From positions 34,654,501-34,718,500 of the forward strand of contig NC_092672.1 in NCBI RefSeq assembly GCF_964355755.1: a DNA stretch of 64,000 nt, in the 5' to 3' direction. The notes under the pieces are model-generated. The model did not search any database. It was not told the origin of the DNA and worked only from the letters and a program-made list of their open reading frames with translations. Below, piece after piece: positions 19,601 through 63,744 of the stretch. The number at the start of each line of letters is the position of its first letter. The first letter of the stretch is position 1. Origin of the DNA: Antedon mediterranea (Eukaryota > Echinodermata > Crinoidea > Comatulida > Antedonidae). A program made the translations under genes and the position numbers.

Positions 19601-22600
19601 CAAGAAAAAATCCTGTGAAAGTATTAGTTGTCAATTTTACATGTGTGTGTTTCATTTTTAAGTAATGTATAGATTGATACATTCTATGTTTTGTAATTTG
19701 CTGAAGAAGGAATGTAAAAAAGTGCCACTGAAAGTATAGAGATTAAAGAAAGACAAAATAACAAATATAGTAGAACTTATTCAGGGGAACTCTCATTCAG
19801 GGGGAACTCTCATTCAGGGGCACTCTTATTCAGGGGAACTCTTATTCAGGGGGAACTCTCATTCAGGGGCACTCTTATTCAGGGGAACTCTTATTCAGTG
19901 GGAACTCTCATTCAGGGGCACTCTCATTCAGGGGCACTCTTATTCAGGGGGAACTCTCATTCAGGGGCACTCTTATTCAGGGGAACTCTTATTCAGTGGG
20001 AACTCTCATTCAGGGGCACTCTCATTCAGGGGCACTCTTATTCAGGGGCACTCTTATTCAGGGGCACTCTTATTCAGGAGAACTCTTATTCAGGGGCACT
20101 CTCATTCAGTGGGAACTCTCATTCAGGGGCACTCTCATTCAGGGGCACTCTTATTCAGGGGCACTCTTATTATTCAGGGGCACTCTTATTCAGGAGAACT
20201 CTTATTCAGGGGGAACTCTCATTCAGGGGCACTCTCATTCAGGGGCACTCTCATTCAGGGGCACTCTCATTCAGGGGCACTCTTATTCAGGGGGAACTCT
20301 CATTCAGGGGCACTCTCATTCAGGGAGAACTCTTATTCAGGGAGAACTCTTATTCAGGGGGAACTCTTATTCAGGGGGCGCTCGTATTCAGGGAGAACTC
20401 TTATTCAGGGAGAACTCTCATTCAGGGGCACTCTTATTCAGGGGGAACTCTCATTCAGGGGAACTCTCATTCAGGGAGAACTCTTATTCAGGGAGAACTC
20501 TTATTCAGGGGGAACTCTTATTCAGGGGGCGCTCGTATTCAGGGAGAACTCTTATTCAGGGAGAACTCTCATTCAGGGGCACTCTTATTCAGGGAGAACT
20601 CTTATTCAGGGGGAACTCTCATTCAGGGAGAACTCTTATTCAGGGAGAACACTTATTCAGGGAGAATCTTATTCAGGGGCACTCCTATTCAGGGAAAACT
20701 CTCATTCAGGGGCACTCTTATTCAGGGAGAACTCTCATTCAGGGGCACTCTTATTCAGGGGGAACTCTTATTCAGGGGGAACTCTCATTCAGGGGAACTC
20801 TCATTCAGGGGCACTCTCATTCAGGGAGAACTCTTATTCAGGGGGAACACTTATTCAGGGAGAATCTTATTCAGGGGCACTCCTATTCAGGGAGAACTCT
20901 CATTCAGGGGCACTCTCATTCAGGGGCACTCTCATTCAGGGGCACTCTTATTCAGGGGGAACTCTCATTCAGGGGCACTCTCATTCAGGGAGAACTCTTA
21001 TTCAGGGAGAACTCTTATTCAGGGGGAACTCTTATTCAGGGAGAACACTTATTCAGGGAGAATCTTATTCAGGGGCACTCCTATTCAGGGAGAACTCTCA
21101 TTCAGGGGCACTCTTATTCAGGGGGAACTTTCATTCAGGGGCACTCTCATTCAGGGAGAACTCTTATTCAGGGGGAACTCTTATTCAGGGGGCGCTCGTA
21201 TTCAGGGGGAACACTTATTCAGGGGAATTCTTATTCAGGGGCACACTTATTCAGGGGGAACTCTTATTCATGGGCACACTTATTCAGGGGGAACTCTTAT
21301 TCAGGGGCGCTCGTATTCAGGGGGAACTCTTATTTAGGGGACACACTTATTCAGGGGGAACTCTTATTCAGGGGGTGCTCGTATTCAGGGGGAACTCTTA
21401 TTTAGGGGACACATTTATTCAGGGGGAACTCTTATATTTAGGGGACACACTTAACACTTATTCAGGGGGAACTCTTATTTAGGGGACACACTTATTCAGG
21501 GGGAACTCTTATTTAGGGAGAACTCTTATTCAGGGGGAACTCTTATTCATGGGCACACTTATTCAGGGGCGCTCGTATTCAGGGGGAACTCTTATTTAGC
21601 GGACACGCTTATTCAGGGGGAACTCTTATTCAGGGGGAACTCTTATTCAGGGAGAACACTTATTCAGGGGGAACACTTATTCAGGGAGAATCTTATTCAG
21701 GGGCACTCCTATTCAGGGAGAACTCTCATTCAGGGGCACTCTCATTCAGGGGCACTCTCATTCAGGGGCACTCTTATTCAGGGGGAACTCTCATTCAGGG
21801 GCACTCTCATTCAGGGAGAACTCTTATTCAGGGAGAACTCTTATTCAGGGGGAACTCTTATTCAGGGGGCGCTCGTATTCAGGGAGAACTCTTATTCAGG
21901 GAGAACTCTCATTCAGGGGCACTCTTATTCAGGGGGAACTCTCATTCAGGGGCACTCTCATTCAGGGAGAACTCTTATTCAGGGAGAACTCTTATTCAGG
22001 GGGAACTCTTATTCAGGGGGTGCTCGTATTCAGGGAGAACTCTTATTCAGGGAGAACTCTCATTCAGGGGCACTCTTATTCAGGGAGAACTCTTATTCAG
22101 GGGGAACTCTCATTCAGGGAGAACTCTTATTCAGGGAGAACACTTATTCAGGGAGAATCTTATTCAGGGGCACTCCTATTCAGGGAAAACTCTCATTCAG
22201 GGGCACTCTTATTCAGGGAGAACTCTCATTCAGGGGCACTCTTATTCAGGGGGAACTCTTATTCAGGGGGAACTCTCATTCAGGGGAACTCTCATTCAGG
22301 GGCACTCTCATTCAGGGAGAACTCTTATTCAGGGGGAACACTTATTCAGGGAGAATCTTATTCAGGGGCACTCCTATTCAGGGAGAACTCTCATTCAGGG
22401 GCACTCTCATTCAGGGGCACTCTCATTCAGGGGCACTCTTATTCAGGGGGAACTCTCATTCAGGGGCACTCTCATTCAGGGAGAACTCTTATTCAGGGAG
22501 AACTCTTATTCAGGGGGAACTCTTATTCAGGGAGAACACTTATTCAGGGAGAATCTTATTCAGGGGCACTCCTATTCAGGGAGAACTCTCATTCAGGGGC

Positions 22601-25600
22601 ACTCTCATTCAGGGGCACTCTTATTCAGGGGGAACTTTCATTCAGGGGCACTCTCATTCAGGGAGAACTCTTATTCAGGGGGAACTCTTATTCAGGGGGC
22701 GCTCGTATTCAGGGGGAACACTTATTCAGGGGAATTCTTATTCAGGGGCACACTTATTCAGGGGGAACTCTTATTCATGGGCACACTTATTCAGGGGGAA
22801 CTCTTATTCAGGGGCGCTCGTATTCAGGGGGAACTCTTATTTAGGGGACACACTTATTCAGGGGGAACTCTTATTCAGGGGGCGCTCGTATTCAGGGGGA
22901 ACTCTTATTTAGGGGACACATTTATTCAGGGGGAACTCTTATATTTAGGGGACACACTTAACACTTATTCAGGGGGAACTCTTATTTAGGGGACACACTT
23001 ATTCAGGGGGAACTCTTATTTAGGGAGAACTCTTATTCAGGGGGAACTCTTATTCATGGGCACACTTATTCAGGGGCGCTCGTATTCAGGGGGAACTCTT
23101 ATTTAGCGGACACGCTTATTCAGGGGGAACTTTTATTCAGGGGGAACTCTTATTCAGGGGGAACTCTTATTCAGGGGGCGCTCGTATTCAGGGGGAACTC
23201 TTATTTAGGGGACACACATATTCAGGGGGAACTCTTATTTAGGGGACACACTTATTCAGGCGGAACTCTTATTTAGGGAGAACTCTTATTTAGGGAGAAC
23301 TCTTATTCAGGGGGAACTCTTATTCATGGGCACACTTATTCAGGGGGAACTCTTTATTCAGGGGGGGCGCTCATATTCAGGGGGAACTCTTATTCAGGGG
23401 ACACACTTATTCAGGGGGAACTCTTATTTAGGGGGCGCTCGTATTTAGGGGGCGCTCGTATTCAGGGGGAACTCTTATTTAGGGGACACACTTATTCAGG
23501 GGGAACTCTTATGGGGACACACTTATTCAGGGGGAACTCTTTAGGGGGAACTCTTATTCAGGGAAAACTCTTATTCAGGGGCACACTTATTCAGGGGGAA
23601 CTCTTATTCAGGGGGCACACTTATTCAGGGGGAACTCTTATTCAGGGGCACACTTATTCAGGGGGCACACTTATTTAGGGGGAACTCTTATTCAGTGGAA
23701 CTCAGTCTTATTTAGGGGGCACACTTTATTCAGGGGCACACATATTCAGGAGGCACCCCTATCAAAGAGACACACCATGAGAAATGTACCATTGGTAAAG
23801 TTTTAACACAGCCAATACCTATTTAGTGGGATACCATTATTATAAGTGGACTTTATTTTTGGTCTCAAAGGTGTCCCCTTAATGGAGGTTCTACTATTCA
23901 ATGTTGAAAACAGGGGTCCTACCTGTACTGTATCTAATTGTAATTGTAATGCAACAGAGTTTCCTTAAGGGAGATAATTATTAATAAAGTTAAACATAAT
24001 CTAATCTAAACAGTTTTTTTTCTTAAGGTGTACAGTACTAATAGGTAACTTTAAACCATAGCATGTTTTTAATTATTTAAACTCATAAATTATATTTATT
24101 ATTCATTACAAATGTGTTTTCCATGATTTGCAGTATTGATTTTAGTAGTGTGAATGCGCTTGAGCTTCCAACATATTCGACCTAGATTTAATGAATCACT
24201 CAGAATTTTAAATTTATTGTAATAAAGAATAACCAAGGCAGAGTATTATTTCATCAGATATCATTTTAAAATGGAGAATGATTTAATGTGTTTTTAATGT
24301 TAAAGGTTAAAGGTCATGTAGAATGGTGGTATTTGATAACTGCATCCAGGCAATGTTTTATAACTTTTTCGTTTAAACATTCACATGAATGTTTAAAAAA
24401 ATGTTGTTAAGCTCTGTCTACACTATCAACTAGGAAGTGATATACCAAATATGGTATTGATATGACATCATAGGCACAACACATTTGTTTTTCACATAAA
24501 GTTTGATGGTGAAGATTTTAATTAAATAATTGAAAAACACATAAATAAATAAGTTTTCAAGGTAATGGAAAAAACAAAAATATGGATGAGATTAAAATTC
24601 AATATTATAATTTCAATATAGTTAAAAAAAAAAAAAAAAAAAAATTGAAAAATAGTTCCACAATCAGCGTTGGTGCAAATTGTTTGTTTGTTGTCTTTAG
24701 GATATTGTAGGTTGGTGGAAGTGATCCTTATATTGTTAATTTTCTGGTATAATTGATTCTCATCTTGTTTTTTTTGTATGATTTGTATATGGATGTACTA
24801 TCCGAAATAAAGAAATGAAAGAATGAAAGTATAAAATGAATGTGTTTTTCTTCTAAAAGAAAATCATGCTTTAGTGAGTTTAACAAAAAAAAATATCAAT
24901 GAGATTGACAAGAAAAAAACAGAAAGGTCCCCTTATGACGATATTGAAATTTAAGAAAAGATCAGCTAGATTTCTTAAAGGTATGCGATAAGGTATAAAA
25001 GTTGTGTTTAACAAGACATATAAATAATGATTATTACACCTAGAGAATTCAATCCAATCTACAGGCTACAACAGCTAGCTGTAGGCTTTCATGTCAATAT
25101 TCTTAAAAGCTTATAATGATTTACTGTAATAAAGAGAAAAAAAAAAGATTTTGTCTAAAAAACATCAAGTTTTTAGCCGTTAAACAAAAAGAAAAAATAA
25201 TTGAAAAGCATAGTCTAACATTTGTATTTTTCTTTATATGTAAAAAGGATGTTGTCAATCACAAGGCATTGTGGAAATTGTTGAGTAGAATAATGGGCTG
25301 CCCTCTTAAGAAACAAGTTGCTTGGTAATTATTGTTTAAGTTCAAACAGGCATACAAAAAATATTAGAATATTTTTTTTTTTTAATTCTTTTTTAAACTT
25401 CATTTCCACAAATTCCTGTGCTCAAAGAATACCAAGTACAAACACACAAATGATCAAATCAAGATACATATCAAACAATGATACATTGCCCAACATATCT
25501 TTAAATAATAATAAACAATTTTAAAAATAAAACCAACAACAATACTGTATAATAAACATTTTGTCACAAAACGTTCTACTACAATACTGCTTTTACAAGA

Positions 25601-53606: not shown

Positions 53607-53775
53607 TTATTTGGCGTGTAAATCCATTTGAATGGAATCTTCTTCGTGAGATAGTTTTGCTGGCTTGTAGTCCTCCTTCAGTAAAATAAACAGGATACAC
53701 ACACAGAATAACAAGACACAAAAACCAAACATGTTGGCAACAATTAATCCTGCTGGGAATGTATCCGGCTTTACT
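53607..53775 (-). CDS. CYB561-B terminal coding exon 4
   Basis: Residues 188-243 plus TAA. It reads VKPDTFPAGLIVANMFGFCV, then TM6 and a short hydrophilic tail ending in MDLHAK. The acceptor TTTTTAG|AGTA is chosen because the next AG two bases on breaks the frame. Confidence 0.88.
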
Positions 53776-56700
53776 CTAAAAAGAAAAAGAAATTGGTATT
53801 GACATACCTATACAAACTTATCGATTTTACAGACTCATGAGTACACTTGCTCTAACACGCCATGTACGACACGCCATGTACGACACGCCATGTACGACAC
53901 GCCATGTACGACACGGCACGGCGTGTGTACGTCGACACGCCATGTACGTCGACACGCCATGTACGACACGGCACGGCGTGTGTACGTCGACACGCCATGT
54001 ACGTCGACACGCCATGTACGACACGGCACGGCGTGTGTACGTCGACACGCCATGTACGTCGACACGCCATGTACGACACGCCATGTACGACACGGCACGG
54101 CGTGTGTACGACACGCCATGTACGTCGACACGCCATGTACGTCGACACGCCATGTACGACAAATTAATTAATTAAGCCCAATTGCCGTCTAGAACCTAGA
54201 CTGTACCTCATATTACATCATACAGCCTTGTTTGGTACATGTCATTTCCTTCCCAAATTTATCATTACTGCATTGTTTCTCAGTTTGTTGTTGTGAATTC
54301 TTTTGGTTGTGTTTTTGCACAAGTCTGTTCAGTCAATTCTTCTCCTACCTTTTATTCCTTTTTCACCATGTTAAACTTTTCCTTGGTTTTCTCATCCCTC
54401 CCAAAAGTAGGCATATGTTTTATGTGTTTGACTTACATGTCATAAATGACAACCTCTGCAAGACCCATCAACACCGTAGCCATCATCATCATAAACAAGA
54501 ACTTTCCACCAAATACGTGTAGTGTTAGCACCGATGATTTTAACGAATCTGAACCAAACTTGGGAAACAGGAAGAAAAGGAATCCTCCAAGCAACTGAAA
54601 AAAAAGAAAAGGTTTTAAGCGAAAACAAGTTATATTGGTTTGAAGAAAATAATATAACCATAAAAGACATGTATTTGCGAGACATACGTACAATATAATA
54701 TTGACGAACGAATCCATCCATAAGGTCGTATAATATTGGAATAAATTGTTTGTTTAGGGGTTGGTATTTGACAAGTCCTTTTACTTTTTTTCCGATCCCT
54801 GAAACAGTTCTTATTTATTGTTACCATTTAAGTTATTGTAATTGTATGTTTCTTTTATTTCTTGAACTGTTTCTAAATAAATGTTGAATAAATTAAATTC
54901 GTGCGGTCATCTATTCGCTCTCGTCGTTAAGATTGGTTTCCACTAGAACGTAACGCAGGGACGTAAACGCAGCGCAAGCAACAGTTCGAATAATCCATTG
55001 CTTGTTGTGATTAGTCAATTCACTTGCGTTGCGTTGCGTCCTTGTGTTTCGTCTCTAGTGGGAATCAAGCTCAAGGGAATACGATAGGGCCTCCTATGCG
55101 CAGTGATCTGTTGTGTGTCATGTCACAGGAATCCGTTCGGTCTTCTTGCACTGAAATCTTTTCACTACCCGTGTTAAGGTAAAAAACCCAACCTCCACTC
55201 TCTATTATACATTGTGATAACCAGAGTTCAAGTGTAGATTCCTTACACAATTAAACGCATTCTTTTTAATCCATCTACTTACCGGTTATGCGAACACAGA
55301 ATGTATGTATGCTTATTATGATCTACTCTACCATGCTTTAGGCACAATTATTGTCTAATCCCATTTACTTAAATACTTGCATACAAACCAAACAGGACAG
55401 TCACATCAATACTTTAGTAACCCTGCATGACCCAATTATACGTAACGAGAACACAGCAGGTATTCCATCAACTTACTTGTATGACAAAAAGGGCAACTGC
55501 AGCGTTACCAAACGATTTACTTGCCTGACATAGAGCAACTGACCCAATTATACGTAACGAGAACACAGCAGGTATTCCATCAACTTACTTGTATGACAAA
55601 AAGGGCAACTGCAGCGATACCAAAGCATTTACGTGCCTGACATTGGGCAACTGACCCAATCATACGTAACGAGAACACAGCAGGTATTCCATCAACTTAC
55701 TTGTATGACAAAAAGGGCAACTGCAGCGATACCAAAGCATTTACGTGCCTGACATTGGGCAACTGACCCAATCATACGTAACGAGAACACAGCAGGTATT
55801 CCATCAACTTACTTGTATGACAAAAAGGGCAACTGCAGCGTTACCAAACGATTTACTTGCCTGACATAGAGCAACTGACCCAATTATACGTATTGAGAAC
55901 ACAGCAGGTATTCCATCAACTTACTTGTATGACAAAAAGGGCAACTGCAGCGTTACCAAACGATTTACTTGCCTGACATAGAGCAACTGACCCAATTATA
56001 CGTATTGAGAACACAGCAGGTATTCCATCAACTTACTTGTATGACAAAAAGGGCAACTGCAGCGATACCAAAGCATTTACGTGCCTGACATTGGGCAACT
56101 GACCCAATTATACGTAACGAGAACACAGCAGGTATTCCATCAACTTACTTGTATGACAAAAAGGGCAACTGCAGCGATACCAAACCATTTACGTGCCTGA
56201 CATAGCGCAACTGACCCAATTATACGTTACCAGAACACAGCAGTTATTCCATCAACTTACTTGTATGACAAAAAGGGCAACTGCAGCGATACCAAAGCAT
56301 TTACGTGCCTGACATAGGGCAACTGACCCAATTATACGTATTGAGAACACAGCAGTTATTCCATCAACTTACTTGTATTACAAAAAGGGCAACTGCAGCG
56401 ATACCAAACCATTTACGTGCCTGACATAGCGCAACTGACCCAATTATACGTAACCAGAACACAGCAGTTATTCCATCAACATCAACTTACTTGTATGACA
56501 CAAAAGGGGCAACTGCGGCGATACCAACCCATTTACGTGCCTGACAATATAAAGCAACTGACCCAATTATACGTTACCAGAACACAGCAGTTATTCCACC
56601 AACTTACTTGTATGACAAAAAGGGCAACTGCGGCGATACCAATCCAACTGTGCGGGCTGTACATGTTCTGGTAGCCTTGTTCATTATGGTATTTAAACAC

Positions 56701-58874
56701 AGCAACCAGGGCTATAGCAGCTAATATCATGGCCGATGCCTGGATAATGAAATGTATTATCTTCTGTGTAGTTCGGCAAATATTTTTGCCCGTGGCAGCC
56801 AGCACTCTAAATGTTATGGCACCTAGGGAAAAAAATCAAATATATGAATAGATCAATCAATCAATAGATTATTACCTCGATAAATAAATCGATATTAGTC
56901 AATATAGATTATGAAATCAACCAATCAATAGGCCACTGTTTATCAATTAATTTGATAATGTTGTTGATCGAGACTATCAATCTGTTTAATAATATTTGTC
57001 GAGCGTTTTACAGATTTTAAATTACTGAGATTTGTTCTACGATTTTATTCTTTCAGCTCTGTCTACACTATCAAACTAGTTTGACAAAAAATAGTGATAT
57101 GCCCAAATATGGCAGTGATATGACATCATCATGTCCATGGGCACATCAAATTTTTTTTGTCACATAAAGTTTGATAGTTTGACAGAGCTTTAGAGTTATT
57201 GAGATTTGTGGAAGCATAGATTTGTAACGACGAAGCTCTCCCAACAACATTCACGTTTGAAATCTAGAATTTATTTGTATAAATTGGATCCGTTGTAATT
57301 AATTATTTGACAGGTTTAAGTGTAAGAAATACTAAACATAATTGAATTCTCAATCAAATTAACAAAGTCATCAATTTCTTGAAATGGTCGATAAACATTT
57401 ATTCATTTTTTAAAGAGAAAATCAAGGCCGAATTGTTGTCTATGATATTAAATTGCCGAGCAATTATTTATCGTTATAATTTGATTGGATGCGTTTGTAC
57501 CGAGCGCAGCATAAGAGCGTATAGCTCGTTCTAATGTACATAAAGACAATGAGTCTGACATGTTTTTAGTGGTAGATTAATCGTTTTGTAAACACACAAA
57601 TAAAGTAATCTCATTTTGAGGTACCAGTATGGCATGTAATCAAAGTCCGTACTATGTTAAGTCTCATTTTGTAAACAGAATAGCGTAACTGCGTCGAAGG
57701 TGTTTAATGAGAACAAAGTTACTTAACACATACACTTAAGTCTCATTTTGTAAACAGAATAGCGTAACTGCGTCGAAGGTGTTTAATGAGAACAAAGTTA
57801 CTTAACACATACACTTAAGTCTCATTTTGTAAACAGAATAGAAAGCGCTCAACGTAAGGGTTTTAACGAGAACAAAGTTACTTAACACCAGTAAATACAC
57901 TTAGGCCTAAGTCTCATTTTGTAAACAGAATAGCGTAACTGCGTCGAAGGTGTTTAGTGAGAACAAAGTTACTTAACACATACACTTAAGTCTCATTTTG
58001 TAAACAGAATAGAAAGCGCTCAACGTAAGGGTTTTAACGAGAACAAAGTTACTTAACACCAGTAAATACACTTAAGTCTCATTTTGTAAACACTGTATAA
58101 TTGCTGCGAGTTCAGGTTCACCGTCTACACTAAGTAGGGCTATGTTATATTTGGAATTTTAAAAACATGTTCATATTGTGTGTTAAGATATAAAAACGTT
58201 ATTATTTACAGACGACAAATTAAAGTTGAACAAGGTCAAAAAAATCATTCTACTGGTAGAGACACCTTTTTAATATTTAAGGTGTGGTCACGCAGTATGG
58301 TTTTGCATTGTTTACTCGGTACAACCCAGGGAGATGGCTCCGATCCCTTGTAATGACCTTTAATAATTAATTTTTATATTTGGCAATAAAAGAATAAGAA
58401 TAATAGCACAACGGTCCTGTTACATGCGCACATCGAGTTTGATTATTTTTAGTTTATATAATAATAATACTGTACACGTACCGAGCACGTGTTCTAGAAA
58501 AATAAATTGAGCATAGGGCCTATTATGAAGTGGCCAAAGAAAAATAAAAAAATAATTTCCATCCCATACGATTATCCTCTATACTTCATCGATGTAGGAG
58601 ATGTTAATTTTGAATACACCAATAAAACTCAAAATCTATACTAAAAAATCTACTGAAAAACCAAATACTATAAACTGTACTTACCATTTCCAAAAAGAAA
58701 GATAAAACCGAGTGACATAAGTGTCGGATGGTAGTTAAACGTATGTAGGCTACCGTCCCAGCCATATCCAGGGTCTTTAACATGCTTGCCTCCCAGTAGC
58801 CCAACGAGGATCAAAGCCGTCACCCCGGCTACTTCAGCTACGCTCACCAACACCCAAAATCCAGTTGTTGACAT
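53607..58874 (-). CDS. Cytochrome b561 family transmembrane ferric/ascorbate reductase, copy B
   Basis: Cytochrome b561 proteins move electrons across membranes from cytosolic ascorbate to luminal or extracellular acceptors through two b haems. The reverse strand of join(53607..53775, 54437..54594, 56608..56822, 58685..58874) encodes 243 residues with about six hydrophobic segments. Four haem-ligand histidines are present: H49 (FNYHP), H87 (KIIH), H121 (YSPHSW) and H161 (LTLHV). Their spacing fits two ligand pairs, 49/121 and 87/161. Intron phases are 1, 0 and 2, identical to copy A upstream. By hand alignment exon 2 is about half identical to copy A. The protein is closest in style to CYB561/CYBRD1, but which vertebrate paralogue it corresponds to cannot be decided here. 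All three introns contain different tandem arrays. Confidence 0.93.
53853..54161. repeat. CpG-rich 14-17 bp tandem array, CYB561-B intron 3
   Basis: Repeats of acacgccatgtacg alternate with tcgacacgccatgtacg and a palindromic block (ggcacggcgtgtgtac). Together they form a higher-order pattern of about 60 bp repeated three times. It is far richer in G+C and CpG than its surroundings. Open frames on both strands are products of the repeat. Confidence 0.93.
54437..54594 (-). CDS. CYB561-B coding exon 3
   Basis: Residues 136-187 plus two bases. It contains FLFPKFG, LTLHVFGG (H161), TM5 with MMMMATVLMG and VVIYD. Acceptor TTTCAG, donor GACAT|GTAAGT. Confidence 0.93.
54931..55070. mobile_element. 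Inverted-repeat MITE, family 2 (CYB561-B intron 2)
   Basis: Arms ggtttccactagaacgtaac and ttgcgtccttgtgtttcgtc then tctagtgggaatc are complementary over about 45 bp around a short core (gcttgttgtgattagtcaat). It lies between the 112-bp array and exon 3. Confidence 0.8.
55430..56583 (-). repeat. 112-bp tandem array of a duplicated exon/intron junction (CYB561-B intron 2)
   Basis: Ten near-identical units. The donor-complement word acttacttgta recurs at 55471, 55583, 55695, 55807, 55919, 56031, 56143, 56255, 56367 and 56485. The genuine exon 2 donor starts at 56602. Spacing is exactly 112 bp for the first nine units and 118 and 117 bp for the last two steps. Each unit carries the last 13 codons of exon 2 (WIGIAAVALFVIQ or variants), the donor CAA|GTAAGT and about 65 bp of intron. 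Confidence 0.95.
56608..56822 (-). CDS. CYB561-B coding exon 2
   Basis: Residues 64-135. It contains RTTQKIIH (H87) and MYSPHSWIGIAAVALFVIQ (H121). Acceptor TTCCCTAG, donor CAA|GTAAGT. Its last 39 nt and this donor are the source of the 112-bp array in the next intron. Confidence 0.94.
57054..57190. mobile_element. TA-MITE (CYB561-B intron 1)
   Basis: Left end agctctgtctacactatcaa; right end tttgacagagctt followed by TA. A small deletion in the right arm. Confidence 0.88.
57655..58095. repeat. Tandem array, 79-91 bp units, CYB561-B intron 1
   Basis: Six occurrences of the word aagtctcattttgtaaacag, 79-91 bp apart. Two unit types differ internally: gcgtaactgcgtcgaaggtg and aaagcgctcaacgtaagg. 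Confidence 0.9.
58685..58874 (-). CDS. CYB561-B coding exon 1
   Basis: Residues 1-63 plus one base. It holds TM1 (about 6-28) and GWDGSLHTFNYHPTLM with H49, then the start of TM2. Donor AATG|GTAAGT. The start has A at -3. Confidence 0.92.
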
Positions 58875-59763
58875 TCTGATGGCCTGATGATATCTAAAAT
58901 GTCTTTCACGATTTTAAACAGTTATATTTGTTGTCAAACAGCGTTAATAATTCTGATTGGTTAAACACACACTGTTTTCACTTAAATTTAAGGTCAGTTG
59001 ACGTATTTAGTATCAACACGATTGTGGATATTGTGGAGAAGCAGGTTACAAAGTGCGCGTATAATCCCATAGATTGTCCTTAATTTTAATAATGTAAACT
59101 CCGTTTATTTTTCTAACAAAGCAAAATTTAGGTCACGATTGAATCTGAAATTTCCGGGATTTAAAATAACAATGCCATACAAAAAAATATCCGCAATAAC
59201 AAACCATTGTACAGATGTCATGATGAGCTTAGATCTATCACTGTACTGTGTTTTATTTTGCTACATTAACAAACATTAAAACTAACTTAACTAAAAACGA
59301 CTTAAATATTTGAATACAAATAATCGATTAATTTCTAAATACAGTGAACCCTTCCTTTAGGACACCCCTCCCTATATAATGAAACAACCCTATCCAGACG
59401 AAACTTTCCTGTATTCACGGTGGTAAAAAACGAGAACAAAATCATGTTTCAACCGATATTAAGGGCCGTAGTGGTTAAAGCTCTGTCTACAATAAAAATG
59501 CCCAAATATGATAGTGATATGCCCAAATATGGTAGTGATATGACATCATCATGTCTATATATGGGCACATCACATTTTTTTGTCACATCAAGTTTGATAG
59601 TGTAGATAGAGCTTAATATTCGTATTAAAATTGCGTGTTGATAGTTTCTGTAGAACGAAAATCAGTTTATGATAATTTAAACAATCTTACATCCTACGTG
59701 ACATAATTATTATTTTTTCTTAAAAAAAAGTTTCTCTTTCTAAGTTCATTTGCTCAAAATAAT
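58875..59763. promoter_or_regulatory. Interval between CYB561-A and CYB561-B
   Basis: 889 bp holding the 3' UTR of copy A, including the MITE at 59478-59613 and a candidate AATAAA complement near 59250, and presumably the promoter of copy B next to 58875. No core promoter motif could be singled out. Confidence 0.4.
59478..59613. mobile_element. TA-MITE, full length, downstream of CYB561-A
   Basis: TA on both sides (59476-59477, 59614-59615). It lies 150-290 bp past the CYB561-A stop codon, so possibly within its 3' UTR. Confidence 0.9.
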
Positions 59764-59947: not shown

Positions 59948-62900
59948 CTGTAAAAATAAATAGATAACCATCGAAATATCAAATAATCTCGGCGTCGCTG
60001 TTTAATTTTGTTACGTTTATGATTATGTAGTAGGCCTATTTACCAGCTCTTAGTCTGGGTTCCAGACGGAGTTTTGACTTAATATTAGTAAAAAGATAAA
60101 TAATTTGGCACATATGGCGTTTCATACGTGTACGACTTGAGCTTGTAACCCGTATTTTAAGTTAGCACTTTAGTGGATATGTGCGCTTTACACATCTTAT
60201 ATTATATTACATAATAATTATGTAAAACAAAAATTGACATTTCACTATTCCACTTACATGTCATAAATGGACGATTCTGACATCCCCATCAGGGCGCTTC
60301 CAATCATCAGGATAAAAATCAATCGACCAGAAGACACGTGAAGGGATAGAACACGTGATCTGAGAACTTCTGAACCGAATTTAGGAAACACCAAGAAAAG
60401 AAAACCGACGAGTAGCTGAAATGCAAATAATCAATAAATCGAAAATCAATCAATATACCAATCGCGAAGGTCCGCCAAATGTAGCCTAAGCATTCTTTAA
60501 CAAGTAGGTCTAACTCTGAATTATGTGATCATAATTATAATCTGATCAAATTGCGGAACATACAATAGTTATTGAAACACACTTTACCCATCATAAAACC
60601 AGTATTTGGTCACGAAATCAAAATTGCTAGAATTGAGCATGCGGTAGACCTATAAAAAATCAGGGAAGAGTGACTCTTCCCTGGAAAAATAAAACAAAAA
60701 AAGAGCTTCTACCTGTAATCCATACAAGGAAAATGCCGTGATCCCGACCCAACTGTGGGGGTGATACATATCAGCCCAGCCTTGTGTTTCATGGAACTTA
60801 AACGTAGCGACGAGACCAACTGTGGCTATGAGGAAGGCAGAGGTCTGAAATGCACCGTGGATCAACTTGGCTGTGGTTCTTGTGACTTGAAGGCCTGTTG
60901 CTGAGATAACTCTGTAGGCAATTGCACCTATAATTGCCAAATAGATAATCATTGGTTTTGTATCTTATCTATATAATCATGTTAAGCTTGGTTCCTACTA
61001 GGACGCAACGCAACTAGTTGACCAATGACAAGCTGCAATTCGAATAATCCATCGATTGTGATTGGTCAACTCACTTACGTAGCGTTACGTCCTTGTGTTG
61101 CGTCTCTAAAGGTTGGTTACCACTAGAACGTATTTTTTTTAACCAATGACAAGCGAAGTTATAGACAGTTAGCAATCACAATCGAATAAGCCATCGCTTG
61201 TGATTGGTCAATTCACTTGCGTTGCGTTACGTCCTTGTGTTGCGTCGCTAGTGGGAACCACGCTTTATAGGAACCCACATTAGAACATAACGCAAGGACG
61301 TAACGCGACAGTCGAATACTTGTGATTGGTCAAATCCCTAAAGCCTGGTTCCCACTAGAACGTAACGCTAGAACGTAACGCAAGGACGTAAACGCAACGC
61401 AAGCGTTTTAACCAATGACAAGCGAAGTTATGGACAGTTAGCAATCACAAGCGAATAAGCCATCGCTTGTGATTGGTCAATTCACTTGCGTTGCGTTACG
61501 TCCTTGTGTTGCGTCGCTAGTGGGAACCACGCTTTACGTTGCGTTACGTCGTTGTGTTGCGTCTCTAGTGCGTCTCAATGCATATAAATATTGAGTTCAT
61601 ACTCATGAAACAGCCTGCAATAAAATGTTCAGTTGGTAATTTACTAGCGTCTTTATCATTTATTTATATAAATATATATTTTTATCTATTATTCTTTTTT
61701 TATATTCTTTGTAAAGTAAACATTCGTTCAATTCAAGTAATTGACGATATTTTTATTAATGTTATAGTATTAGTATTCACTACGGTTATTCTGTCATTCA
61801 TTATTATATAACATTTCACTTTAAACGAATACGACGACCGATTGTGATTTTGTCCCCGAACGAATCAGGCTTGATGAGCATGTTTTATAGCTTCTATCAC
61901 GTGAGACGAGCAATTGTACTATAATTACCTTATCTGTACCAGCAGCTTGTTCCATTCATTCATAATATGATTGTTTACTATGTGTGCGAGATATACGAAT
62001 GTCATTCATTCATGACATTTAAACAAATTGCGTCATCGTAGTAGACGACAACATATTTGTACTTACAACATACACGCAACTAAAGCTAAATTTATCCAAG
62101 TCTTCTAACGTGATGATTTATCCAAATCTCAATGGGCAAACGAATGAAAACATAATCACGTCATCACAATTACGTATACATCCAAAACAAATGACAATGT
62201 TATGTTATAGCTCATCACCGTAAATTCAATTCAATTCAACTTTTATTTCAGACAATTGTCTATATGGTATAATACATTACACACAAAAAAAAGATGAAGG
62301 AGAGAGGACCAAAACTTTTATCTATTGGTATATAATGCCTCTCTCCATTTGTAGTACATGTTTGAATCCATCAACAAATATTTATATATACAAATTAACA
62401 TTCTGTTTTCGCTTTTTATTATTCTTGTAAGAAATCGGTAAGTCGAAATCCTCAAATATTCATAAAATGATGGAATATTGTTTTCCACTAACAAATTCCT
62501 GCACTAACAAATCTGGGTTGTCACAACAACCGCCGGAAAGCATCATTATAATAACAAACTTTAAGTCGGTTAATATCTTTTTTAAAATGATAATTTCCAA
62601 CATAAAACATTACCTTATTAGTGAGTGAGTGGCCGAGCGGTTAAGACAGTGGAACCGTAATCACGTAGCCATAACATCGGCAGGGGTTCGAGGCTCACTC
62701 ACTCCATGGTTCTGGTGGTAGAACGAGTCTTCTCGGATAAGGACTATAAACCGTAGGTCCAGTGTACACAACTTGCTCGTGTGCACTTTAAAGAACCTAG
62801 TACATCTTTCGAGACGAGTAGGGGGTTACCCCGGTGTACTAGTACATCACAGCCACTGATCACCAACTGGGCCCTCTGGGAGATCAGTCTTTGACTGAAG

Positions 62901-63744
62901 AGGTTACCCAGTATAAAGATAAAACAAACAAACATACCTCTAATACATAGAGATCTATATTGGCGTTTTATATCTGCTTCATCTCTTAGATTCGAAGTTA
63001 AAATATGGCCTAAGTACGTAAAATGATCAACATACTCCAAAAGTTAGGCAATAAGATAATAAGATACAAAGAAAAACACTTTGGTTTCATGTGATTTCAA
63101 TTGCATTTATTTGCCACCTTATTACCATTTATATCGTAATCACAATACGTATACATTTAAAACAACTGACAATATTTTATAGCTCATCACCGTGATATAA
63201 TATTTTCGCGGCCGTAATATTATGTAATAATATTATAACGTCTGCTCACCGTACCTCGGCATATCGCGATTGAAGCAGTAGGCCATACCCAATCCCAATT
63301 TAGGTATCGATCGTGGCCAGTTTTTTTAAACCATGATAAAATAATTAATTTTCACTGTTATTATTTTGTCCATTGGGAAGAGGACGTACATGCTGCGTGT
63401 ATATAATCATATAAAATTATTAGTTAATGATTTATACTTATAGCACCAGAGTCTAGACAATAATTATGCAGTGACCCCAAAAAAACACATGGTAAATAAA
63501 TAGTAGTAGGTCTTAGTAGTAGATATATTAATTTAAAAATGATGTTCTTACCGTTGCCTTGGAGGAATATAAAAGCGATGACCATGAGAAGTGGATGATA
63601 GTTGAATGTCTTCAGACTGCCATCCCAGCTGAACCCAGGCTCCTTGTTGAGTTGTCCTCCAAACAGACCGATGAGAACCACGGCAGTCAAGCCAGAAATC
63701 TCGGCGAGAGCCACAAGAGCGAAGAACACTATTTTATCTGCCAT
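59764..63744 (-). CDS. Cytochrome b561 family transmembrane ferric/ascorbate reductase, copy A
   Basis: The reverse strand of join(59764..59947, 60258..60415, 60713..60927, 63552..63744) encodes 249 residues. Six hydrophobic segments lie at about 5-28, 51-69, 86-106, 124-145, 158-180 and 203-226. The four haem-ligand histidines are H50 (FNYHP), H88 (KLIHG), H122 (YHPHSW) and H162 (LSLHV), with the 50/122 and 88/162 pairing typical of the family. RTTAKLIHG and FIFLQGN strongly resemble vertebrate CYB561. The C-terminal tail is short and polar (KRQKEDSVELITSSQRS). Relative to copy B it has four extra residues in the loop before TM6, where KFPPEKFP looks like a small internal duplication. It lies 889 bp upstream of copy B on the same strand, so the pair looks like a tandem duplication. 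Confidence 0.94.
60258..60415 (-). CDS. CYB561-A coding exon 3
   Basis: Residues 137-188 plus two bases, with FLVFPKFGSEVLRSRVLSLH (H162) and TM5. Acceptor ATTTCAG, donor GACAT|GTAAGT. 158 nt, as in copy B. Confidence 0.94.
60713..60927 (-). CDS. CYB561-A coding exon 2
   Basis: Residues 65-136, with RTTAKLIHG (H88) and MYHPHSWVGI (H122). Acceptor ATTATAG, donor CAG|GTAGAA. The same boundaries and length (215 nt) as copy B exon 2. Confidence 0.94.
60984..61575. mobile_element. Cluster of family 2 inverted-repeat MITEs (CYB561-A intron 1)
   Basis: At least three complete copies (about 60984-61108, 61111-61265, 61341-61540) and partial ones. They share ggttcccactagaacgtaac arms and the core cttgtgattggtcaattcac. 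The copies sit head to tail just upstream of exon 2 and are internally rearranged. Confidence 0.8.
62222..63043 (-). mobile_element. LINE 3' fragment with reverse transcriptase C-terminus, split by a SINE
   Basis: Reverse-strand translation of 62940-63040 gives VDHFTYLGHILTSNLRDEAD then IKRQYRSLCIRG, typical of the segment after the catalytic core in non-LTR retrotransposon RTs. Beyond the SINE it resumes with DINRLKVCYYNDAFRRLL and later MYYKWREALYTN, interrupted by stops. The 3' end has AATAAA and a (GAATT)n tail (62222-62250). A dead 5'-truncated copy in CYB561-A intron 1. The clade was not determined. Confidence 0.75.
62621..62936 (+). mobile_element. tRNA-derived SINE, full length
   Basis: A tRNA-like head with A box TGGCCGAGCGG (62630-62640) and B box GGTTCGAGG (62685-62693) resembles class II tRNAs. 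A body (ggtccagtgtacacaactt, gcactttaaagaacctagta, gagacgagtagggggttacc) and a tail of aaacaaacaaac follow. It interrupts a LINE fragment, with an imperfect 13-14 bp target duplication (acattaccttatta / acatacctctaata). It is not a functional tRNA gene. Confidence 0.88.
63552..63744 (-). CDS. CYB561-A coding exon 1
   Basis: Residues 1-64 plus one base: MADKIVFFALVALAEISGLT at the start, H50 in FNYHPLLM, and IFLQGN at the end. Donor AACG|GTAAGA. The start context is ATAATGG. Confidence 0.94.

Follow-up and report, generated by a model that had tools for sequence, protein, structure and literature searches.

Minisatellite-like tandem duplications of exon-intron boundaries, called mirages, have been described in the amphioxus genes Adh3, BflGb6 and BflGb9 (PMC3087553). 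According to the available portion of that report, mirage units measure 10 to 160 bp (150–160 bp in the globins and 10–72 bp in Adh3), and many of them include AG/GT signals. At BflGb6 the copy number varies between haplotypes, and interior units are homogenised while units at the edges are not. The same text states that the Adh3 data, together with RT-PCR, suggest that regular splicing is undisturbed, allows nonetheless that the duplicated signals could serve as cryptic sites, and proposes that mirage units may become exons and yield new introns. Lancelet PGBD5 has repeats, of 60 and 108 bp, that fall on or overlap its splice sites, and accurate splicing is reportedly kept there; in the accessible part of that paper (PMC3902484) these repeats are likened to mirages and troponin C is cited. 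In human segmental duplications, internal tandem repeats at exon-intron boundaries are said to alter transcripts (PMC2812944, in the part at hand), and the accessible text of two further reports deals with intron gain by tandem genomic duplication (PMC4974935, PMC3443670).

We describe here a minisatellite in an intron of a predicted CYB561-family gene, CYB561-B, that lies in a 64,000-nucleotide stretch (the window) of the genome of the crinoid Antedon mediterranea. Like the amphioxus mirages, as the available text presents them, it consists of tandem units that run across a real exon-intron boundary, many of them with AG/GT; its 112-bp unit is within their size range, and it shares with BflGb6 a homogenised interior and a divergent edge unit. 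It differs from them in belonging to an echinoderm, in repeating a 3' exon boundary ten times, with nine of the copies forming open, in-frame 48-nt pseudo-exons, and in being known from the sequence of one assembly. A Bindin match in the genome (2.3e-28), Bindin being a marker of echinoderms, would point to that phylum and away from lancelets, which have GFP genes; a GFP-family search gave no match here, but was equally silent in the control genomes, and a COX1 search gave none either. The presence of repeats at splice sites is also a likeness to lancelet PGBD5, but PGBD5 and troponin C are other genes of another lineage, and the 108-bp repeat is an imperfect triplication in the portion of the paper available. 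Minisatellite expansion at an exon-intron boundary is common to this locus and to the human segmental-duplication repeats; however, the recent human paralogues are described, in the part of the source at hand, as showing altered splicing or new introns, whereas the ancestral splice pair of CYB561-B is intact as read from DNA alone. Copying that spans splice-like sites, from which a new intron could start, likewise recalls the reported cases of intron gain by tandem duplication, as far as their accessible text goes, but the CYB561-B copies lie wholly inside an existing intron. Among the matches listed, from a literature largely without subscription journals, none concerned such an array in echinoderms or a "mirage" outside lancelets. 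The CYB561-B array may extend junction-derived minisatellites from lancelets to another deuterostome phylum. Its 11 donors, which match in CAA/GTAAGT (the slash marks the splice site) and lie within 1.2 kb, are a natural test of donor choice by the spliceosome, and the array likewise offers a test of the idea, already in print, that new introns or exons arise from arrays of this sort.

The host gene and its neighbours

The gene model predicts CYB561-B to be an intact gene of four exons and 243 codons on the minus strand, with GT-AG introns. Its exons 2 and 3 pass the Pfam cut-off for PF03188 (Cytochrom_B561), and the predicted protein aligns with cytochrome b reductase 1 (5zle) over 187 residues (6.6e-31). 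Judged by this domain over the Pfam cut-off and by the similarity to a solved member, the predicted host gene is a member of the CYB561 family. A tandem paralogue, A, lies at about 59.8–63.7 kb. The exons are as follows.

58685..58874, minus strand: CYB561-B exon 1, from the ATG; donor GTAAGTACA; from the gene model and similarity to exon 1 of paralogue A
56608..56822, minus strand: CYB561-B exon 2; PF03188 match over the cut-off and gene model; the array derives from its last 39 nt
54437..54594, minus strand: CYB561-B exon 3; PF03188 match and gene model; its acceptor ranks top of 105 AGs scanned
53607..53775, minus strand: CYB561-B exon 4, ending at the stop codon; tblastn with exon 4 of paralogue A (E 2.4e-7) and gene model

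Exon 2 ends exactly after codon 135 in the gene model, so a 48-nt insertion at the exon 2/3 boundary would stay in frame and add 16 residues. These added residues would be predicted to fall in or just before the hydrophobic stretch at that boundary. Other tandem arrays were seen at 57657–58092 and 53855–54161, in introns 1 and 3; together with the array in intron 2, this means that all three introns of CYB561-B carry arrays. The sequence at 62630–62940 resembles a tRNA-derived SINE by eye; ARAGORN reported no tRNA in the window.

Anatomy of the array

Tandem Repeats Finder (TRF) places a minisatellite in intron 2 at 55428–56646, with a period of 112, 10.8 copies and 93% matches. On the minus strand of the interval 55380–56840, CAA/GTAAGT occurs 11 times, once as the exon 2 donor at 56608 and ten times in the copies (donors at 56491, 56373, 56261, 56149, 56037, 55925, 55813, 55701, 55589 and 55477), and the spacings between successive donors are 117, 118 and then eight times 112. 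The repeat unit is made up of 39 nt of exon (13 codons), 49 nt of intron up to GGGTCA, and a joining sequence of about 24 nt (27 at the first junction). The first-pass annotation had described ten tandem copies of the exon 2/intron 2 junction in 112-bp units, each with 13 exon codons and CAA/GTAAGT; TRF and the donor spacing confirm the copies, and the 39-nt exon part and the presence of the donor in 10/10 copies confirm their content. The array and its units are listed below, numbered from exon 2 outward.

55428..56646, minus strand: mirage-like minisatellite with a 112-bp period, formed by ten copies of the junction and the final 39 nt of exon 2; from TRF and donor spacing
56491..56540, minus strand: copy 1, adjoining exon 2; 50-nt unit, frameshifted; has the highest-scoring acceptor of the array
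56373..56420, minus strand: copy 2; 48-nt unit ARKWFGIAAVALFVIQ
56261..56308, minus strand: copy 3; 48-nt unit ARKCFGIAAVALFVIQ
56149..56196, minus strand: copy 4; 48-nt unit ARKWFGIAAVALFVIQ
56037..56084, minus strand: copy 5; 48-nt unit ARKCFGIAAVALFVIQ
55925..55972, minus strand: copy 6; 48-nt unit ASKSFGNAAVALFVIQ
55813..55860, minus strand: copy 7; 48-nt unit ASKSFGNAAVALFVIQ
55701..55748, minus strand: copy 8; 48-nt unit ARKCFGIAAVALFVIQ
55589..55636, minus strand: copy 9; 48-nt unit ARKCFGIAAVALFVIQ
55477..55524, minus strand: copy 10; 48-nt unit ASKSFGNAAVALFVIQ; the repeat unit ends after GGGTCA

An AG, which sits in the joining sequence, is found exactly 48 nt before the donor in nine of the ten copies, and each of these nine has an open, in-frame unit of 16 codons (type ARKC in four copies, ASKS in three and ARKW in two). 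In the copy nearest exon 2 (our copy 1, which is copy 10 of the first-pass annotation) the AG lies at 50 nt, out of frame, and this copy has indels of its own. Both observations agree with what had been claimed, namely nine units of 16 open codons in frame and one unit of 50 nt. The eight complete copies (2–9) are 91–98% identical to each other.

Origin of the array

Compared with copies 2–10, the last 39 nt of exon 2 show 2 to 4 differences and the following 45 nt show 1 to 6; this copying of the junction is far beyond chance. The claim that the array is built from the end of exon 2 holds. Moreover, the array derives from the junction and not the reverse, since exon 2 aligns with its relatives right through its end.

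The idea that the joining sequence is diverged exon 2 was not supported, as no significant similarity to exon 2 was found just upstream of the repeated part. Against exon 2, its common form had a best score that 385 of 5,000 shuffles and 849 of 6,256 other places in the window also reached; for the form adjoining exon 2 the corresponding counts were 639 of 5,000 and 4,425 of 6,256; the sequences used were of 28 and 31 nt, a cut that takes in four exon-derived bases.

A search of the 354-Mb genome gave, among the best candidates scored, the array locus and one isolated 30-bp match on contig C4, and an 80-nt junction query gave the array locus only, again among the best candidates scored. With one locus and this short match, an identity as dispersed repeat or transposon is not supported for the array at the sensitivity used. 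The match on C4 (32425727–32425756) reproduces exactly, over 30 bp, the end of the exon part of the array, the donor and the first bases of the intron; there is weak further similarity just upstream of it, and the 3-kb stretch is without other CYB561 similarity. It is perhaps a filler insertion. A dispersed repeat of about 140 bp is present at 57055–57194 and 59476–59630 of the window and at 1740–1882 and 2165–2334 of the C4 stretch, in which the 30-bp match occupies 1501–1530; the copies of this repeat can be aligned with one another in either orientation, as those of a short inverted-repeat element would be.

Splice signals and reading frame

Acceptors were scored with an approximate matrix of our own, whose weights were not fitted to this genome. 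The 105 AGs scanned begin 40 nt into intron 2 and end near 54410, and some of them lie within exon 3. On this approximate scale the highest of the 105 values, 10.0, is that of the real acceptor at 54594, whereas the nine 48-nt AGs score -1.0 to 1.5 and rank 10 to 37, so that the weakness of the acceptors remarked on in the first-pass annotation is borne out. The second rank, with a score of 3.9 by the same matrix, belongs to the AG of the out-of-frame 50-nt copy 1. In six of the nine 48-nt copies the 48-nt AG is outscored by another that lies 20 nt from the donor, out of frame, and has a score of 1.6, and in all nine a further AG lies 14 nt upstream of the 48-nt AG. Real acceptors in the two genes of the window (n=6) score 0.6 to 10.0 and others at paralogues (n=7) 4.0 to 10.3, although each of the latter was chosen as the best AG near the exon start, which favours high values. 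A weak score is nonetheless compatible with use, since real acceptors of the neighbouring gene score 0.6, within the range of the copies, and 1.9, just above it. Finally, exon 2 extended to any of the ten copy donors reaches a stop at codon 25.

Variation among the copies

The copies are related by descent, so the in-frame AG and open frame that they share count once. When the non-exonic part of the unit was shuffled, an AG in frame without a stop arose in 56% of 20,000 trials; the in-frame AG is not beyond chance. Among the eight complete 112-bp copies (2–9; copy 1, with its indels, and the incomplete copy 10 were left out), 13 of the 112 columns vary, including 4 of the 39 in the exon-derived part, and the hypergeometric probability of 4 or fewer variable columns in those 39 nt is 0.50. 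None of the six donor columns varies among copies 2–9, a result that is close to chance expectation and of low power, and all 11 donors are intact. In the 16 codons of copies 2–10 (copy 1 was left out of this count) there are 4 replacement and 1 silent variable positions, against an opportunity of 108:36 (3:1). The codon changes fit neutrality and no constraint is seen, with the low power afforded by 13 variable columns in eight related copies.

Interpretation and alternatives

In our judgement the array is very probably a mirage of the kind known from lancelet genes, neutral in effect or mildly costly at most. In anatomy it combines the features of one, being a minisatellite-like repeat across a real junction with its splice signal, with a homogenised interior and a divergent edge. 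As the sequence shows, the final 39 nt of exon 2 and the next 49 nt of intron, donor included, were duplicated in tandem to give the minisatellite; the joints between its units are stretches of about 24 nt in which no similarity to the part of exon 2 preceding the repeated segment can be detected. The pattern of variants suggests that unequal exchange or slippage then amplified and homogenised the array. In the real transcript, 56608 is most likely still spliced to 54594; the extra donors would be a by-product of copying, and the in-frame AG would be a chance feature of the joining sequence. The first-pass annotation had allowed that the array may be neutral, and the variation and codon counts favour that part of its reading, whereas neither constraint nor acceptor scores nor frame lent support to its proposals of cassette exons or decoy donors.

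A functional reading is not far-fetched, since repeats at human exon-intron boundaries can alter splicing (PMC2812944, in the portion available). If the array were a bank of cassette microexons, its 48-nt units would be spliced in singly or in number and add multiples of 16 residues. We think this very unlikely, even though nine of the ten units are open, keep the frame and carry the CAA/GTAAGT donor of exon 2, which itself ends at a codon boundary: the acceptor scores are weak, another AG lies 14 nt upstream in 9/9, the best acceptor of the array belongs to the out-of-frame 50-nt unit, the units are without visible constraint, and more than half of the shuffles yield an in-frame open AG. Unlikely too is a role as decoys, in which the ten extra GTAAGT sites would bind U1 and cut productive splicing, and array length would tune the output of CYB561-B through nonsense-mediated decay or intron retention. 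In lancelets, arrays with duplicated splice sites reportedly give no aberrant mRNAs (PMC3087553, PMC3902484, as far as the accessible text of each goes), and the donor columns are not visibly better kept than others, a comparison of low power; these points weigh against decoys, while the match of 10/10 copies to exon 2 in CAA/GTAAGT and the stop at codon 25 reached on extension to any copy donor speak for them. A decoy role is compatible with a mirage origin, so the odds of the readings do not sum to one.

We regard it as extremely unlikely that copies were gained or collapsed during repeat assembly. The genome draft of one lancelet globin array was aberrantly assembled, according to the available part of PMC3087553, but the patchwork of distinct variants among the CYB561-B copies and the indels peculiar to copy 1 would not come from simple assembly error; the copy number is known from one assembly. 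A farther-reaching possibility, which we hold to be very improbable, is that of a splice-junction minisatellite outside lancelets with nine in-frame pseudo-exons, at least some of them used at a low level, and with array length deciding how many 16-residue insertions are made at a membrane helix. If this were true, the locus would be a length-variable exon bank caught at birth.

Tandem repeats elsewhere in the genome

Arrays with a period of at least 40 numbered 14 in 126,000 sampled letters (of which 9,000 were N) and eight in the window, the CYB561-B array included. Only one of these 22 arrays, that of CYB561-B, has a strong donor in its consensus, and three of the 22 pass a looser exon-like test. 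Arrays with a period of at least 30 were present in 7 of 20 kinase-exon regions. Minisatellites are ordinary here. A scan that recovered CYB561-B exon 2 as its positive control detected copied exon edges at none of the 20 kinase exons and at none of 10 further loci (nine CYB561 and one Bindin, the Bindin match in the genome being at 2.3e-28). The 20 kinase exons were hand-picked from 134 matches, for short open frames, and each exon edge was placed at the end of the profile match plus 60 nt, which misses edges lying farther out. The view that junction arrays are frequent in the genome is not supported, with none at these 30 other exon loci; a minisatellite that includes a junction is probably uncommon, yet would be expected now and then at this genome size. 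The window also contains, at 19776–23750, a 4-kb array of a 17/33-bp unit that has open frames of more than 400 codons in every plus-strand frame.
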